From Thermoflexus sp. (GTDB taxonomy: Bacteria; Chloroflexota; Anaerolineae; Aggregatilineales; Aggregatilineaceae): a stretch of DNA of 64,000 bases. Every line of letters starts with the position of its first letter. Position 1 is the first letter of the stretch. The stretch spans positions 62,001 to 126,000 of the forward strand of contig DYGX01000003.1 of assembly GCA_020724465.1 (NCBI GenBank). Reading direction: 5' to 3'. The position numbers were made by a program, and so were the translations under genes. A model generated the notes under the pieces. It searched no databases. It saw only the letters and a list, made by a program, of their open reading frames with translations, and had not been told where the DNA came from. This document shows, piece by piece, positions 3,764-33,937 of the stretch.

Positions 3764-3793
3764 ATTATAAGAACGCGTCGCCCGCACCGCCAA
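3764..3793 (-). promoter_or_regulatory. sigma70-type promoter for sod
   Basis: On the minus strand TTGGCG (3793-3788) and a perfect TATAAT (3769-3764) are separated by 18 nt. The predicted leader is about 100 nt to the ATG at 3654. Confidence 0.65.
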
Positions 3794-3799
3794 GCCACA

Positions 3800-3835
3800 G
3801 GCGAATTTCTATCATAGTTTTTATAGAATTTCGCC
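3800..3835. promoter_or_regulatory. long palindrome in the sod/metallophosphatase divergent region
   Basis: Two 13-nt arms (3800-3812 and 3823-3835) are inverted copies with one mismatch (3806/3829), around an AT-rich 10-nt centre. It lies just upstream of the -35 box of the sod promoter, an activator-like position, and upstream of the TATACT of the opposite gene. It looks like an operator for an unknown regulator. No known Fur, OxyR or Rex consensus fits. Confidence 0.5.
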
Positions 3836-3881
3836 GTGTCACCGCCCTCCGCCCCGGTTTCGCGCGGGTCGTGGGCTGTGC

Positions 3882-3887
3882 TATACT
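3882..3887 (+). promoter_or_regulatory. possible -10 box for the metallophosphatase gene
   Basis: TATACT lies 47 nt before the ATG at 3935. There is no good -35 hexamer at 17-18 nt, so this is weak. Confidence 0.35.
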
Positions 3888-3934
3888 GCCTTGGCGGAAC
3901 CTGAACGTTCCCTTGAGGCAACGGACCGGCACAT

Positions 3935-5371
3935 ATGCTACAGATCTCGATCCTCTATACGGGCGACATTCACGGGCGTGTGGAGCGCCTGACCCGTGCC
4001 GCATATCTGGCTCAGGTTCACCGCGCCGAGCTGACCGCCGCCGGCAAGCACGTCCTGCTGCTCGATGCAGGGGATGTTGAGGAACGCCAGGTGCTGGAAA
4101 GCGACCTGACCAAAGGTGCTGCGATGTTCTGGCTGCTCAAGACGGCGGGCTACAACGCCAGCGCCGTCGGCAACGGGGCGGCGCTGACCTACGGCCCCTC
4201 GGCGCTGGCTGCCATCGCGCGCAGCAGCGGGCTGCCGCTGGTCTGCGCCAACATGCTCACCCGCGATGTCCACCCTACCCCGGTGCCGGGTACTACCCCA
4301 ACGCTGATTGTCCCCTGCGGGCCGGTGCGCGTGGGACTGATCGGGCTGACCAGCCCCATGCACGGGGCGTACGAGCGGCTCTATCCCGTCAAGATGCCGG
4401 ATGCGATCGATGTAGCCTGGCGCTATGCGCACGCGCTGCGCGCGCAGGGTTGCGAGCTGGTCGGCGTGCTCTCGCACCTCGGTTATGATCTCGACGTGCA
4501 GCTGGCCAAAGCCCTGCCGGACCTGAACTTCATCATCGGCGGGCACTCGCACACCCTGCTGGACTATCCAACGGACGTGGGCGGCGTGCCCATCTGCCAC
4601 GCGGGGCACTTCGGGCGCTATCTGGGCCGGCTGGATCTCACGCTGGACGGGCATGCTCGCGTCTGCCAGTGGTTCGGCCAGATCATCCAGGTCCCCGAAG
4701 ACGGTCCCGAAGCGCCGGATGTGGTGCGCGAGTGGCGTCGCATCCAGGCCGAAGCCCGGCGCGTGCTGCGCGAGCAGGTGGGCAGCCTGTCCGACGACGT
4801 GGAGCTTGCCAGCGATCGGGCCTGCGGCATGGGCCAGTTGCTCGCCGATGCGCTACGTCTGCGTCTCGAAGCAGACGCGGCGCTGTGCATCACCGGGCAC
4901 CTGAGCACCGGGTTGAAGGCCGGGCCCGTCTTTTTGGGCGATCTGATCCGCGCCTGTCACTCGCCCGCCAACCCCGGCGTCGCCGAGCTGACTGGCGAGC
5001 AGATCGCCCGCGCGCTGGAATTCGGCGCTGCGCCGGACGTCTGGAAACAGACCCCTCACGCGCTGCGCGGAAACACGGTCGGGATCGTTCAGGTATCCGG
5101 CCTCAGCTATCACCTCGACCACAGCGCGCCCCCCGGCAAGCGCGTCAGCGGCGTGCGGCTGATGGGCCGCCCGGTGGAGCGCAAGGCGGTCTACCGCGTT
5201 GCCGCGACGGACTACGAGCTGATGCCGCAGCGCGGCTACGTGCCCGGCCTGGACCCGGCCGCGGTCCAGTTCGATTCGCGCGTCCAGCTCCGCGAGGTAT
5301 TGCAGGATCACTTCGCGCTCTTCGACCCGCTGGTGCCCGGCCTGCGCCCGCGGATTCTCTCGCCGCAGTGA
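3935..5371 (+). CDS. 5'-nucleotidase/SoxB-like metallophosphatase with altered motif
   Basis: This 478-residue protein has the two-domain layout of bifunctional 5'-nucleotidases. An N-terminal calcineurin-like metallophosphoesterase (about 1-250) has D-x-H at Asp11/His13, Gly46-Asp47, a GVLSHLG histidine and IIGGHSHT. A C-terminal nucleotidase-type domain (about 270-478) follows. Family members hydrolyse nucleotides or, in SoxB, thiosulfate-bound intermediates. The third metal/catalytic motif is normally GNH(E/D), or GNW in SoxB-like forms; here it reads VGNGAALTYG, keeping the metal-binding Asn80 but placing Gly81 where the catalytic His would be. No signal peptide is seen, unlike most secreted relatives. 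The start has only a weak SD (GAGG about 20 nt upstream). The fold is certain; activity and substrate are open. Confidence 0.85.
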   Translation: MLQISILYTGDIHGRVERLTRAAYLAQVHRAELTAAGKHVLLLDAGDVEERQVLESDLTKGAAMFWLLKTAGYNASAVGNGAALTYGPSALAAIARSSGLPLVCANMLTRDVHPTPVPGTTPTLIVPCGPVRVGLIGLTSPMHGAYERLYPVKMPDAIDVAWRYAHALRAQGCELVGVLSHLGYDLDVQLAKALPDLNFIIGGHSHTLLDYPTDVGGVPICHAGHFGRYLGRLDLTLDGHARVCQWFGQIIQVPEDGPEAPDVVREWRRIQAEARRVLREQVGSLSDDVELASDRACGMGQLLADALRLRLEADAALCITGHLSTGLKAGPVFLGDLIRACHSPANPGVAELTGEQIARALEFGAAPDVWKQTPHALRGNTVGIVQVSGLSYHLDHSAPPGKRVSGVRLMGRPVERKAVYRVAATDYELMPQRGYVPGLDPAAVQFDSRVQLREVLQDHFALFDPLVPGLRPRILSPQ

Positions 5372-21117: not shown

Positions 21118-21218
21118 ACAGCGATCGGCATCATTGCAGCGAAGCAGCGAAAGCATTGCTCTCGCTGCCTTTTGCTGTCTTTTGCTGCTCGTCGCCGCTT
21201 TTAGCTGTTCTTCGCTAC
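21118..21218. repeat. 10-nt phased inverted repeat element, copy A
   Basis: The right arm consists of units of exactly 10 nt beginning at 21164, 21174, 21184, 21194 and 21204, all close to GCTGYYTTTT or GCTGTTCTTC. The left arm carries CAGC cores at 21119, 21137 and 21145. The middle makes a 7-bp hairpin (21144-21150 with 21162-21168). It fills the space between two convergent genes, and its last unit overlaps the stop codon of the epimerase-like gene (21215-21217). The same type of element recurs at 32206-32381. Confidence 0.8.
21144..21183 (+). terminator. likely terminator within repeat copy A
   Basis: The hairpin 21144-21168 is followed on the plus strand by CTTTTGCTGTCTTTT (21169-21183). 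This suits ending the nadD/binding-protein transcript. Confidence 0.5.
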
Positions 21219-29425: not shown

Positions 29426-29454
29426 TTGCCAATGACCCGGCGGCTTACTATAAT
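29426..29454 (+). promoter_or_regulatory. strong promoter for alaS
   Basis: TTGCCA (29426-29431) and a perfect TATAAT (29449-29454) are 17 nt apart, giving a leader of about 40 nt. Confidence 0.75.
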
Positions 29455-29501
29455 TGCCGCGCAATTTCATTGCGGGCCGATTCGAAAGAGAATCACACAC
29501 G

Positions 29502-32222
29502 ATGAAAAAGATGACCAGCGCGCAGGTGCGCGAGGCATTTCTGGACTACTTTGTAGAACTGGGTCACAAGCGGGTCGCGTCGTCGTCGCTGGTTCCCGGC
29601 AACGACCCCACGTTGCTGTTCACCAACGCCGGGATGGTGCAGTTCAAAGACGTCTTCCTGGGCCTCGACCAGCGCGACTATTCGCGGGCCACGACCGCGC
29701 AGAAGTGCATGCGCGTCAGCGGCAAGCACAACGATCTGGAAAACGTCGGCCCGTCGCCGCGCCATCACACCTTCTTTGAGATGCTCGGCAATTTCAGCTT
29801 CGGAGACTACTTCAAGCGCGAAGCGATCCACTACGCCTACATGCTGCTCACCCGCGTCTACGAGCTGCCCCCGGAACGGCTGGCCTTCACCGTCTTCGAA
29901 AACGACGATGAAGCCTACAACGTCTGGGTCAACGAGATCGGCGTCGACCCGCGGCGCGTCGCGCGCATGGGACCCAAGACGAATTTCTGGCAGATGGCCG
30001 AGACGGGGCCGTGCGGCCCCACCAGCGAGATCCACTGGGACCTGCGCCCGCACGAGGGCATTGACACGATCATCGGCGATCTGCGCGCCGAAAGCGACCG
30101 CTTCCTGGAGCTGTGGAACCTGGTCTTCATGCAGTACAACCGGCTGCAGCCGGATCCGGATCACACCGGCCAGTGGGACCAGCCGCTCCCCAAGCCCGGC
30201 GTCGATACCGGCATGGGACTGGAGCGCCTCTTAAGCGTGATCCAGGGCACCGACGCCAACTATGAGACCGACCTGTTCATGCCGGTTATCCGGCGAGTGC
30301 AGGCGCTCACCGGGCACACCGACGCCGAGCGCGACGCGAACATCGTGCCATACCGCGTCATCGCCGATCACATCCGCGCCGCGACGTTTTTGATCGCGGA
30401 TGGCGTGCGTCCTGGTGCGACGGGGCGCGACTATGTCTGCCGCATGGTCATCCGCCGCGCGGTGCGCTTCGCGTCCAAGCTGGGCTTCGACGAGCCGTTC
30501 CTGGCGGATATCGCAGACGTGGTGATCGAGACGATGGGCGAGCACTACACCGAACTGCCCGAGCACCGCGACGCCATCCGCCGCACCATCACCAACGAAG
30601 AGGTGCGCTTCCGCCGCGCGATGGACCGCGCCCTGGCCGAGCTGGGCGAGATGCTGGCCGCGCTCCCACCAGGGGGAGAGCTGCCCGGTGCGCTGGCCTT
30701 CCGGCTCCACGCCGAGAAGGGTCTGCCGCTGGAAATCACGCGGGATGTGGCGCACGAGCAGGGCTACACCGTAGACGAGGCCGGGTTCCGCGAGGCGCAG
30801 CAGCAGCACGAGGCGATCAGCCGCGGGCGCGACGGCGGCGCGTTCGGCGCGATCATGACCGGCGAGGTCTACCAGTCCGCCTTGAACGCGCTGCGCCAGG
30901 CAGGCCGGCTCAACGGCGGGGTTCGCCAGGAGCAGTACGGCCCGCTGCGCTGCGAGGCGACCGTGATCGGGATTTTGCGCGACGGCGAGCTGGTCGATCA
31001 GGCGCAGGCGGGCGACACCGTCGAGGTTGTGCTCGACGTGACGCCGTTCTACGTCGAGTCGGGCGGCCAGGTGAGCGACACCGGCGTGCTGCAAGGCGCC
31101 GATTGGACGGTCGACGTCGAGGACGTGCGCCAGCCCGTCGGCGGGCTGATCGTGCATCGCGGCGAGGTGGTCGAGGGCCAGCCGCGCGTGGGCACGCGCT
31201 GCACGGCCCAGGTCGACGGCGAGCGGCGGCTGGACATCATGCGCAACCATACCGCGACCCATCTGCTGCACGCCATCCTGCGTCAGGTTCTGGGAACGCA
31301 CGTGCAGCAGCGCGGCTCATTGGTCGCGCCGGACCGCCTGCGCTTCGACTTCAGCCACGACCAGCCGATCACGCCGGAAGAGCTGGACGCCATCGAGCAC
31401 AAGACCAACGAAGCGATTCTGGCGAACATGCCGGTCCTGGCCGTGTGGAAAGACCTGGAGACGGCGCGCGCCGAGGGCGCCATGGCGCTCTTTGGCGAAA
31501 AGTACGGCGAGCGCGTGCGGACGATCAACATTATGCAATCCGAAACCGACCGCTTCAGCTACGAGCTGTGCGGCGGGACGCACGTCGAGCAGACCGGCGT
31601 GATCGGCCCGTTTGTGATCGTCTCTGAGGGCAGCATCGCGCAGGGCATCCGCCGCATCGAAGCGCTGACCGGGCGCGGCGCCGAGGCGTACATCCGCCGC
31701 AGCCTGCATCACCTCAAGCAGATCGCGGCGCGGCTCGGCACCACGCCGGACGCAGTCGAGGCGCGCGTGCAGGCGCTTCAAAGCGAGCTTAAAGCGCAGC
31801 AGTCGGAAAACGCGCGTCTGCGGCGTCAGCTCGCCCGCTACGAGTTCGAAGCGCTGCTACACAGCGTCGAGACGATCGGCGACGCGAGCGTGCTGGTCGC
31901 GCCGATCTCGCCTACCTCGCCCGACACCCTGCGCGAGATGACCGACTGGTTCCGCGATCGGGTCGCCAGCGGGGTGATCGTGCTCGGGATGGTCGGCGAT
32001 GGCGGCAAGCCGCAGTTGATCGCCGCCGTGACCAAGGACCTGACGCCGCGCATCCAGGCCGGGGCCATCATCAAGTCCATCGCCGCGACCATCGGCGGCG
32101 GGGGTGGCGGGCGTCCCGACATGGCGCAGGCGGGCGGCAAACACGCTGAGCGCCTGCCCGAGGCGCTGCAACAGGCGTCGGCGCTGATCCGCGAAAAGCT
32201 AACGGCAGCGCAAGGCAGCTAA
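29502..32222 (+). CDS. alaS: alanyl-tRNA synthetase
   Basis: This 906-residue class II enzyme charges tRNA-Ala and clears misacylated species. The aminoacylation core opens with MTSAQVREAFLDYFVELGHKR and FTNAGMVQFKDVFLG. The editing domain zinc site is N-H-T-A-T-H-L-L-H with C-G-G-T-H-V. The C-Ala domain ends with GGGGGRPDMAQAGGK. The length is normal. The start is taken at ATG 29502; MTSAQ at 29511 is an alternative, and a more upstream in-frame ATG overlaps the -10 box. The last codons (A-A-Q-G-S) and the stop are already inside repeat element B. Confidence 0.98.
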   Translation: MKKMTSAQVREAFLDYFVELGHKRVASSSLVPGNDPTLLFTNAGMVQFKDVFLGLDQRDYSRATTAQKCMRVSGKHNDLENVGPSPRHHTFFEMLGNFSFGDYFKREAIHYAYMLLTRVYELPPERLAFTVFENDDEAYNVWVNEIGVDPRRVARMGPKTNFWQMAETGPCGPTSEIHWDLRPHEGIDTIIGDLRAESDRFLELWNLVFMQYNRLQPDPDHTGQWDQPLPKPGVDTGMGLERLLSVIQGTDANYETDLFMPVIRRVQALTGHTDAERDANIVPYRVIADHIRAATFLIADGVRPGATGRDYVCRMVIRRAVRFASKLGFDEPFLADIADVVIETMGEHYTELPEHRDAIRRTITNEEVRFRRAMDRALAELGEMLAALPPGGELPGALAFRLHAEKGLPLEITRDVAHEQGYTVDEAGFREAQQQHEAISRGRDGGAFGAIMTGEVYQSALNALRQAGRLNGGVRQEQYGPLRCEATVIGILRDGELVDQAQAGDTVEVVLDVTPFYVESGGQVSDTGVLQGADWTVDVEDVRQPVGGLIVHRGEVVEGQPRVGTRCTAQVDGERRLDIMRNHTATHLLHAILRQVLGTHVQQRGSLVAPDRLRFDFSHDQPITPEELDAIEHKTNEAILANMPVLAVWKDLETARAEGAMALFGEKYGERVRTINIMQSETDRFSYELCGGTHVEQTGVIGPFVIVSEGSIAQGIRRIEALTGRGAEAYIRRSLHHLKQIAARLGTTPDAVEARVQALQSELKAQQSENARLRRQLARYEFEALLHSVETIGDASVLVAPISPTSPDTLREMTDWFRDRVASGVIVLGMVGDGGKPQLIAAVTKDLTPRIQAGAIIKSIAATIGGGGGGRPDMAQAGGKHAERLPEALQQASALIREKLTAAQGS

Positions 32223-32381
32223 AGACAGCCAAATGCAGCTACAGACAGCGAAAGACAGCTACAAGCAGCAGAGAATACCTGCTCTTCGCTGTTCCTAGCT
32301 GTTCTTCGCTGCTCTTTGCTGCTCTTCGCTGCTTCTTGCTGTTCTTTGCTGTTCCTTGCTACTCTTCGCTTTCGTGTGCTA
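32206..32381. repeat. 10-nt phased inverted repeat element, copy B
   Basis: Left array: CAGC cores at 32206, 32216, 32226, 32236, 32246, 32256 and 32266, exactly every 10 nt. Right array: GCTG-like cores at 32288, 32298, 32308, 32318, 32328, 32338 and 32348, then GCTA/GCTT variants at 32358, 32368 and 32378. The left and right cores mirror each other around 32278.5, so the transcript can fold into one long imperfect hairpin. Unit consensus on the right is GCTGYTCTTY. It begins inside alaS and ends just before the next gene. Open frames through it (KEQQ/EEQ-rich) are by-products. Confidence 0.9.
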
Positions 32382-32385
32382 CAGT
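32356..32385 (+). promoter_or_regulatory. possible promoter at the end of repeat copy B
   Basis: TTGCTA (32356-32361) and TACAGT (32380-32385) are 18 nt apart. The ATG at 32393 follows the -10 by 7 nt, which would give a leaderless mRNA. The -35 falls inside a repeat unit. Confidence 0.35.
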
Positions 32386-32392
32386 ACGCGCC

Positions 32393-33937
32393 ATGAAAGC
32401 CACCCTGCACGTCCTGCGGCTGGAACCGCACGATGATGTCCTGTCGATCCGCGACCGCCTGACCTTCGTTCGCTCGACGCACGTTTTGCTGGTCTGGCCC
32501 GAAGGCGGCATGGCGTTTCCCCGTCGCAAGCTCGATCTGCTGTTGGTCCAGCGGCAAGCGCGGCGGCTGGGCTTTCACCTGGCGCTGGTCACCGATTCAC
32601 CCGACGTGCTGGCCTACGCCGAAGACCTGAACATCTCCGCCTTCCCCAGCATCGACGCCGCGCGCCGCACGCGCTGGAAAACCCCGCGCGACAAGCTGTT
32701 TGGCGAGCGCCCGCCCGGCTATGCGGCCCAGGCCGCGCTGGCCGGGCGCGCGGCGCGCCCGGGCTGGCGCGAAGAGGCGGCGCGCTCGCGCTGGTTCGCG
32801 CTGGCGCGCTGGAGCCTGTTCTTGCTGCTGGTCGGCGCGCTGGGCACAGCCTTCTGGCTGGTCGCGCCCAGCGCCACCGTCACCCTCACCCCGGCGACCG
32901 ATCAGGTGGCGGTCACCGTCGCCATCACCGCCGATCCGGCGCTGACCGATATCGACATCGAAAACGCGCGCATGCCCGGCACAGTCGTTTCGCTCGAAGC
33001 GACCAGCCGGGTTACCATCGAATCCTCGGGGCGCGAAGACGCCGGCGCGACGCGCGCACGCGGTCGCGTTCGCCTGACTAACCTTTCCAACGGGCCGGTG
33101 ATCGTCCCGCCCGGCACCGTGGTTTCGACAGGTGGCACGTTCCCCATCCGCTTCGAGACACTCAGCGAGCTGATCCTGCCCGCCGGGCAGGACGCCGCCA
33201 GTGAGGTTGACGTTCTGGCGCTGGCCGAGCACGCCGGGACGGATGGCAACGTGCCCGCCGGGGCGATCACGCGCGTAGAAGGCTCGCTCGCCGGCGTGGT
33301 CCAGGTGACCAACCCCAACCCGACGACAGGCGGCGCGTTCCTGGAACGCAAGATCGTGACCGCCGAGGATCACAGCCGCCTGCTTGTGCTGGGGCGCCAG
33401 CAGGTTTTGCAGCGCGCCCGCGATCTGCTGCTGCACCAGTACAGCGGCGAACAGTTCCTCGTCCCCGGCTCGATCACCATCATCGAGGAGCGCCCCGGCT
33501 GGACGATCTACAGCGCGGTAGTGGGCGAGGTCGCCGACAGCGTCAGCCTGGACCTGCGCGCCCGCGTCCAGGCGGTGATCGTCGACGAGCGGCTGGCGCG
33601 CCAGGTCGCCTATGCCGGGCTGCGGCCCCGCATCCGGCCAGGGCTGGAAATCGCCCCGGGCGCGCTGACGTTCACGCGCGGCGCGATCCAGCAGATCGAA
33701 CCGGACGGGCGCGTCACGTTTTTGATGGAAGTGCGCGGCACCAGCACGGTTGCCATCGATCCGAACACGGTGCGCGCGCGCATCGCCGGGACGAGCGTCG
33801 CCGAAGCCCGGCGCCGCCTGGAGCGCGAACTGGTACTGGAGCCGGATCACCCGCCCCGGATCGAGGTCTGGCCGGGGTTCTTGGGGCGGCTGCCCGCGCT
33901 GCCGATGCGCATTCAGGTTGAGATCGTCCGCCCATGA
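32393..33937 (+). CDS. baseplate J/gp47-like membrane protein
   Basis: This 514-residue protein has a soluble N-terminal part (about 1-95) with a Rossmann-like look (VLLVWPEGGMAFPRRKLDLL then FHLALVTDSPDVLAYAEDLN). A basic/Ala-rich stretch and one membrane helix (about 143-162, LFLLLVGALGTAFWLVAP) come next. The C-terminal region (about 165-514) resembles the baseplate J family: GRVRLTNLSNGPVIVPPGTV with VSTGGTFPIRFET and VPAGAITRVEGSLAGV. Bacterial genes of this kind are common in Chloroflexi and are not phage remnants. The role is unknown, perhaps an envelope assembly factor. The ruvX start overlaps its stop by 4 nt (ATGA). The start at 32393 lacks an SD. Confidence 0.8.
   Translation: MKATLHVLRLEPHDDVLSIRDRLTFVRSTHVLLVWPEGGMAFPRRKLDLLLVQRQARRLGFHLALVTDSPDVLAYAEDLNISAFPSIDAARRTRWKTPRDKLFGERPPGYAAQAALAGRAARPGWREEAARSRWFALARWSLFLLLVGALGTAFWLVAPSATVTLTPATDQVAVTVAITADPALTDIDIENARMPGTVVSLEATSRVTIESSGREDAGATRARGRVRLTNLSNGPVIVPPGTVVSTGGTFPIRFETLSELILPAGQDAASEVDVLALAEHAGTDGNVPAGAITRVEGSLAGVVQVTNPNPTTGGAFLERKIVTAEDHSRLLVLGRQQVLQRARDLLLHQYSGEQFLVPGSITIIEERPGWTIYSAVVGEVADSVSLDLRARVQAVIVDERLARQVAYAGLRPRIRPGLEIAPGALTFTRGAIQQIEPDGRVTFLMEVRGTSTVAIDPNTVRARIAGTSVAEARRRLERELVLEPDHPPRIEVWPGFLGRLPALPMRIQVEIVRP

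Follow-up and report, generated by a model that had tools for sequence, protein, structure and literature searches.

An array of 10-nt-phased inverted repeats adjoins the 3' end of alaS in the window, the 64,000-nucleotide stretch of a Thermoflexus sp. genome that was analysed here, and extends towards a gene with a Baseplate_J domain. The array, its neighbouring genes and a second member of the same family have the following coordinates in the window:

29454..32222, plus strand: alaS, alanyl-tRNA synthetase (PF01411, PF07973, PF02272), whose 3' end is adjoined by the element
32200..32269, no strand: left (purine) arm, seven units NNNNNNCAGC in 10-nt phase, the reverse-complement unit (GCTGTCTTTA-like) having its C at position 6
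32220..32222, plus strand: alaS stop codon TAA, from array unit (TAAAGACAGC)
32270..32277, no strand: inter-arm loop (AGAGAATA)
32278..32367, no strand: right (pyrimidine) arm, nine scored units GCTGYYYYTN, of the type with C at position 7 (GCTGYTCTTN)
32368..32385, no strand: right arm, decayed terminal part (GCTTTCGTGT, GCTACAGT), phase retained, from direct reading
32393..33937, plus strand: downstream gene with Baseplate_J domain (PF04865), starting 25 nt past the scored right arm
21164..21213 (about 21156-21216), no strand: second, weaker family member, with a five-unit right arm and a short irregular left part

The initial annotation had described seven CAGC cores and ten GCTG-like cores, spaced by 10 nt and mirrored about position 32278.5, all of which was confirmed by direct reading. 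The left arm has CAGC at 32206, 32216, 32226, 32236, 32246, 32256 and 32266 (n=7, exact 10-nt steps), and the right arm has GCTG at 32288, 32298, 32308, 32318, 32328, 32338 and 32348 in the same 10-nt phase, followed by the in-phase cores GCTA (32358), GCTT (32368) and GCTA (32378), for a total of ten GCTG-like cores; an extra CCTG at 32278 lies just ahead of them. The consensus proposed at that stage, GCTGYTCTTY, holds for the right arm but not for the left, which is GCTGYCTTTA-like on the other strand, and this difference between arms is systematic. The array is not strictly intergenic, given that the alaS stop codon lies inside it. The last alaS codons are array units, and the C-terminus ...KLTAAQGS is partly array-coded. 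In a scan of the 64-kb window, this array was the only stretch whose autocorrelation at a lag of 10 nt reached 0.66 over 60 nt. The weaker element lies between convergent genes, and its right end adjoins the stop codon of the minus-strand gene. Directly before the ATG of the Baseplate_J gene, TTGCTA and TACAGT separated by 18 nt (window 32356-32385) could be a promoter with its -35 in the last array units; the TACAGT is also kept in genome G002.

The array is more than a chance pattern. The source genome (G000; 4.42 Mb in 56 contigs) has 77 occurrences of GCTGYTCTTNGCTGYTCTTN and none of its reversed control, and four phased GCTG cores occur 321 times compared with 0 for the control. For further counts we used 0.853 Mb of unselected sequence (contigs C4 and C10, most of C24 and the window), where a position-weight chain model requiring at least 4 units called 27 elements, which corresponds to approximately 140 per genome. 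About 1 in 30 genes of this uncultured Chloroflexota genus ends in such an array. Noncoding tandem arrays in the unselected sequence had periods of 10, 20 and 30 only, and the remaining periodic stretches were coding, with periods that are multiples of 3. A coding explanation is rejected on account of the period of 10 and of the restriction of noncoding arrays to these three periods, and the non-coding, 10-nt-phased inverted array is real.

In general, the purine arm (NAAAGACAGC)n comes first and is linked by a short loop to the pyrimidine arm (GCTGYYYTTN)n, whichever strand is read. In the unit as written on the pyrimidine strand (GCTGYYYTTN), the four core positions are conserved at 94-100%, position 5 holds either C or T, positions 6 and 7 are mostly T or C, position 9 is T in 93-94% of units and position 10 is free. 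The GCTG core looks selected, as it is kept where positions 5-7 change between C and T and position 10 varies. Spacing was exactly 10 nt in 531 of 564 unit steps, and the distance between arms, 20 nt or less in most elements, is not a constant number of helical turns. The arms have mean sizes of 7.3 and 7.7 units, but the sizes of the two arms of an element are uncorrelated (rho 0.14), and some elements have a purine arm without a partner arm.

According to the initial annotation, a lack of other copies and of a 10-nt phase in close relatives would point to a chance tract; copies were found throughout the genome and in its congeners. Two congeneric genomes carry arrays, with 185 and 44 four-core matches, compared with 0 or 1 in 38 more genomes of the family and order. 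The congeners are 'Anaerolineae bacterium SJ484' (JADLHR01) and 'Anaerolinea sp. Tomsk_5_66_7' (DYEN01). A three-unit pattern searched across 396 genomes sampled from the class matched G000 alone, and sampled contigs from five other genera of the family contained no comparable array. In SJ484, two arrays (L098:3195-3348 and 3787-3999) have a drifted core, with CAGA/TCTG replacing CAGC/GCTG, which suggests that the core can shift within one array. Among the matches listed from a scan of 84,980 species, nearly all of those outside Chloroflexota were short, one-arm simple repeats, the exception being one Acidobacteriaceae MAG, Lichen_MAGs_cladonia7 (CAHJWN01), with 10-nt-phased CAGC arrays at two loci (L133:1512-1635 and L298:1450-1519) and purine arms starting at stop codons. 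As in the genus, one locus is two-armed (3 left and 8 right units) and the other has the purine arm alone; however, the phylum is different and the copies are very few, and these arrays are probably of independent origin. A one-arm array of perfect (TAAAGACAGC) repeats, with 9 scored units, lies beside a tRNA-like sequence in Mycobacterium angelicum (L141:1752-1841). The phages and plasmids searched gave no match, and pattern matches in IMG/VR were unrelated simple repeats.

The position of the arrays is tied to gene ends. The purine arm begins where the adjacent gene stops and often supplies the stop codon itself (TAA, TAG or TGA). Stop-side distances cluster at -3, +1/+2 and -13, in register with the unit, with about 60 of 73 between -76 and +11, while start-side distances are broad. 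Several genes have array-coded C-termini (-AKGS, -AKNS, -KSS, -QSS, and -TAAQGS in alaS). In the unselected contigs, arrays were enriched at convergent pairs, being present at 9 of 84, compared with 17 among the 480 remaining pairs (odds ratio 3.3, p 0.0085). Both arms, of at least 3 units each, were present in 16 of 24 tandem-gene elements, where one gene alone ends, and the inverted layout is therefore not merely the result of two genes each bringing its own tail. Where an element has a single arm, it is the purine arm at the stop codon in 11 of 17 cases. The next start codon follows within 25 nt in 7 of the 16 tandem two-arm elements. So short a gap could hardly hold a new promoter, and read-through is suggested at those sites; some arrays may lie inside operons, as attenuating or stabilising hairpins.

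A further regularity, read from the sequences of the arms, is that the two arms of an element avoid identity. One side carries GCTGYTCTTN (C at position 7) and the other GCTGYCTTTA or GCTGYTTTTA, and the fraction of units with C at position 7 is anti-correlated between left and right arms in G000 (rho -0.79, 36 elements) and in G001 (rho -0.68, 24 elements); however, arm polarity is inherited between these two genomes (rho 0.83), and they are not independent tests. In G002 (10 elements) the C-at-7 correlation was not significant, and arm identity was also low (p 0.05). Within elements of G000, arm identity was 0.505, compared with 0.552 when arms were swapped between elements (z -5.4). The predicted pairing of an element's own arms was weaker than that of swapped arms (-39.4 vs -43.1 kcal/mol), and the longest perfect inverted repeat had a mean of 9.6 nt and a maximum of 17 in own arms, compared with a mean of 12.4 and up to 55 in swapped arms. 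As a result of this non-identity, perfect pairing rarely exceeds 10 bp. No consistent rule tying arm type to the direction of transcription was found among the tandem cases. An assembly artefact, or selective loss of perfect hairpins during assembly, is an unlikely cause of the heterology, since 0 of the 48 G000 contig ends sampled lay within an array. SbcD and RNase III are encoded in the genome, and it is possible that the heterology guards against hairpin-directed DNA deletion or RNase III cleavage.

As RNA, the window element has a predicted fold of -77.9 kcal/mol (z -4.4 vs shuffles), compared with a z of -2.0 as single-stranded DNA. The long cruciform suggested by the initial annotation has to be qualified, since perfect complementarity over more than about 10 bp is avoided between the arms. 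Simple terminator scans of 32000-32600 found no canonical terminator (a GC-rich stem of 5 bp or more with a short loop, then a run of T), and Rfam returned nothing at gathering score, only sub-threshold matches to microRNA hairpins. A canonical terminator was scored in 1 of 30 array-bearing 3' regions versus 10.5% of others. At convergent pairs, canonical terminators were found in 3 of 9 with an array versus 32 of 75 without, and mutual exclusion was not significant (p 0.73); the genome also uses ordinary intrinsic terminators, scored at 43% of array-less convergent pairs versus 0% in shuffles.

The arrays resemble bidirectional intrinsic (Rho-independent) terminators in lying downstream of stop codons, in being enriched at, and common to, convergent genes, in their predicted RNA stem and in having a purine/A-rich left and a pyrimidine/T-rich right side on both strands. 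In Escherichia coli, inverted repeats of at least 8 bp after stop codons are mostly intrinsic terminators (PMC6060812), which makes the position of the arrays relevant by analogy. However, an intrinsic terminator has one short GC stem and a T-run, whereas the array has tens of 10-nt units and U-tracts broken by C. Intrinsic-terminator stems stay complementary through compensatory changes as they evolve (PMC5381666), unlike the arms of the array, which avoid perfect pairing and match each other worse than swapped arms do (z -5.4 in G000; the finding was repeated in G001, which shares arm polarity by descent). By definition, then, the array is not an intrinsic terminator, though it would work like a bidirectional 3'-end hairpin.

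Orthologous sites were compared with the selection of sequence in mind: much of the G000 reference sequence had been chosen for containing arrays, and the sharing of sites was tested in the unselected contigs. There, G001 arrays had an array at the same junction of G000 in 11 of 11 cases, while two G002 arrays had no counterpart array in G000, one of them with phased remnants at that place. At 22 colinear sites of G000 and G001, with flanks 94% identical, both arms had equal unit counts in 0 of 22. In this respect the arrays behave as VNTRs or minisatellites, whose tandem unit number differs between close relatives at a fixed site.

The reading that we favour, with a probability of roughly 0.55, is that the array is a lineage-specific hairpin at transcript 3' ends, acting in both directions as a terminator and/or an mRNA 3' stabiliser and built as a 10-nt ladder. 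The stop-codon position, the fixed polarity, the convergent enrichment and the presence of two arms in tandem contexts all point to a role at the level of the transcript. Among the three suggestions of the initial annotation, a terminator/attenuator family fits best, as the array adjoins stop codons with its purine arm 5' and is enriched at convergent genes. In RNA made from either side, the purine arm (NAAAGACAGC)n would start at the stop codon and be joined by a short loop to the pyrimidine arm (GCUGYYYUUN)n. The CAGC and GCUG cores of the two arms would pair as 4-bp clamps at 10-nt intervals, forming a ladder in which weak A/U-rich steps separate the clamps. Since the purine-then-pyrimidine order holds on both strands, one element could serve two convergent genes. 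With RNA polymerase on the pyrimidine arm, each 10-nt unit would bring U-rich RNA close to the active site as the units already made zip together behind the enzyme, and such unit-by-unit zipping would offer many repeated chances of termination. Where termination fails, the long stem could stabilise or delimit the 3' end of the upstream mRNA. Unit number would drift fast by slippage, with core, polarity and arm mismatch retained. Termination or stabilisation of transcripts and the ladder mechanism are what we infer from these features; counted against them are the missing canonical stem and T-run in the window element, the lack of a clear exclusion of canonical hairpins from array sites, a stem stability that is not maximised, the uncorrelated arm sizes, the lone purine arms and the close next starts. 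A bolder and more doubtful proposal is that the arrays represent a new class of gene-end element, a 'ladder terminator', whose unit would be about the length of the RNA-DNA hybrid, every one-unit advance of RNA polymerase placing a U-rich hybrid behind a fresh GCUG/CAGC clamp in both directions, and whose arms would be kept non-identical to avoid a long perfect DNA or RNA duplex.

Several features would also be expected of a neutral or selfish tandem repeat, a 10-nt unit amplified at gene ends in the ancestor of the genus by slippage (or by template switching in a small stop-proximal hairpin), filling the intergenic space up to stop codons without function. Unit counts differ at all 22 orthologous sites, where the flanks are 94% identical, arrays have grown into coding ends (-AKGS, -AKNS, -QSS), the family is confined to one genus and, among the matches listed, unrelated bacteria have short one-arm arrays of similar units. 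We nevertheless regard this explanation as rather unlikely, because the core is conserved while other positions vary, one period and core recur at all sites with no other noncoding period except multiples of 10, the arms have opposite polarity in tandem contexts, and independent neutral slippage does not predict the anti-correlation of arm types. The protein docking considered by the initial annotation is retained in the form of a DNA-level array, in which 10-bp phasing would bring cores and A/T-rich steps to one helix face and cause curvature, or the binding of a nucleoid or domain-boundary protein, at gene ends. The strict 10-nt phase within arms, the conserved GCTG core, the approximately 140 sites across the genome and the single arms agree with it, but it explains neither the start at stop codons, the purine-first polarity relative to the gene nor the arm heterology, and the arms do not lie a set number of turns apart, which makes it improbable.

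Insertion of a mobile miniature element (MITE or REP/BIME-like) at gene ends could produce many dispersed copies, and GTAG-REPs can supply the stop codon (PMC3733652); three Y1 transposase genes are present in the genome. However, the retrieved flanks of these three Y1_Tnp genes contain no array, there is no fixed-length unit or conserved outer end, the ends being set by stop codons, all 11 of the G001 arrays mentioned above are matched at the same junction, and plasmids and phages gave no matches. The mobile element suggested by the initial annotation is accordingly set aside as highly unlikely. REP/BIME sequences (GTAG/CGTC families, RAYT-linked) are likewise dispersed, extragenic, palindromic and near gene 3' ends; but a REP is one palindrome of 20-40 bp, tagged with GTAG or CGTC, and the array consists of two arms of tandem degenerate decamers in variable number. 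The arrays have neither this tag nor this size, and no linkage to a RAYT was found. There is also little to recommend a Rho-loading site: on both strands the distal arm of the transcript is rich in pyrimidines and offers evenly spaced YC dinucleotides, UC recurring at 10-nt intervals, but the complementary purine arm directly upstream would mask it, and in single-arm elements it is mostly the purine arm that is kept. DNA uptake sequences (Neisseria DUS, Haemophilus USS) also have a unit of about 10 nt and occur as inverted pairs near gene ends. Nevertheless, DUS occur singly, in thousands of near-exact copies that are found within genes too, whereas array units are degenerate, varying at positions 5-7 and 10, and are confined to phased gene-end arrays; 21 of 21 period-10 arrays of the unselected contigs were mostly noncoding.

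In the part of the literature covered, no published description of such arrays was found, and this genome-wide, genus-restricted set of approximately 140 gene-end elements has an apparently undescribed architecture. If transcripts do end there, a long ladder of degenerate decamers can take the place of one compact hairpin in termination or 3'-end protection, and a lineage can swap its gene-end signals within the lifetime of a genus. The heterology rule makes it testable whether inverted repeats useful as RNA are kept imperfect for the safety of the DNA or because of RNase III, and the rapid change in unit number makes the arrays candidate loci for strain typing.

Other gene-end sequences were found at the same junctions in related genomes. 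At the 3' end of alaS and at the convergent pair of contig C24, other genera of the family carry other dispersed palindromes (GACTTCCGAAGTC in sister genus g5; GGGCATATTGCAATATGCCC-like in G004 and G009), which, unlike the arrays, are one short palindrome each, of other sequence and non-tandem. One 3-unit array of G002 corresponds in G000 to a GAGCCTGGCCGCGGCCAGGCTCATT hairpin (a GC-rich palindrome followed by CATT). Functional replacement of arrays by other hairpins at those junctions is plausible. The g5 palindrome GACTTCCGAAGTC / GACTTCGGAAGTC (L203, L204, L206; L244:10179-10241) occurs at the alaS 3' end and elsewhere and is a different, genus-specific gene-end hairpin, and GGGCATATTGCGATATGCCCC-like palindromes adjoin stop codons in G004 (L232, ~1180-1260) and in G009 (L212/L240, alaS 3' end). 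In G000 itself, a CCCCTCACCCCAACCCCCTCTCCC-like dispersed repeat is enriched 3' of stop codons in contigs C4, C10 and C24. The contig ends of this genome (L253-L292) often break at tRNA genes and at recurring sequences (GCTCATACCCCCAGTTTAGCATCGTCC..., GTCGCCCCCTCAGCCC..., AAGTTTTAGGCAA...), the latter being probably the ends of insertion sequences.
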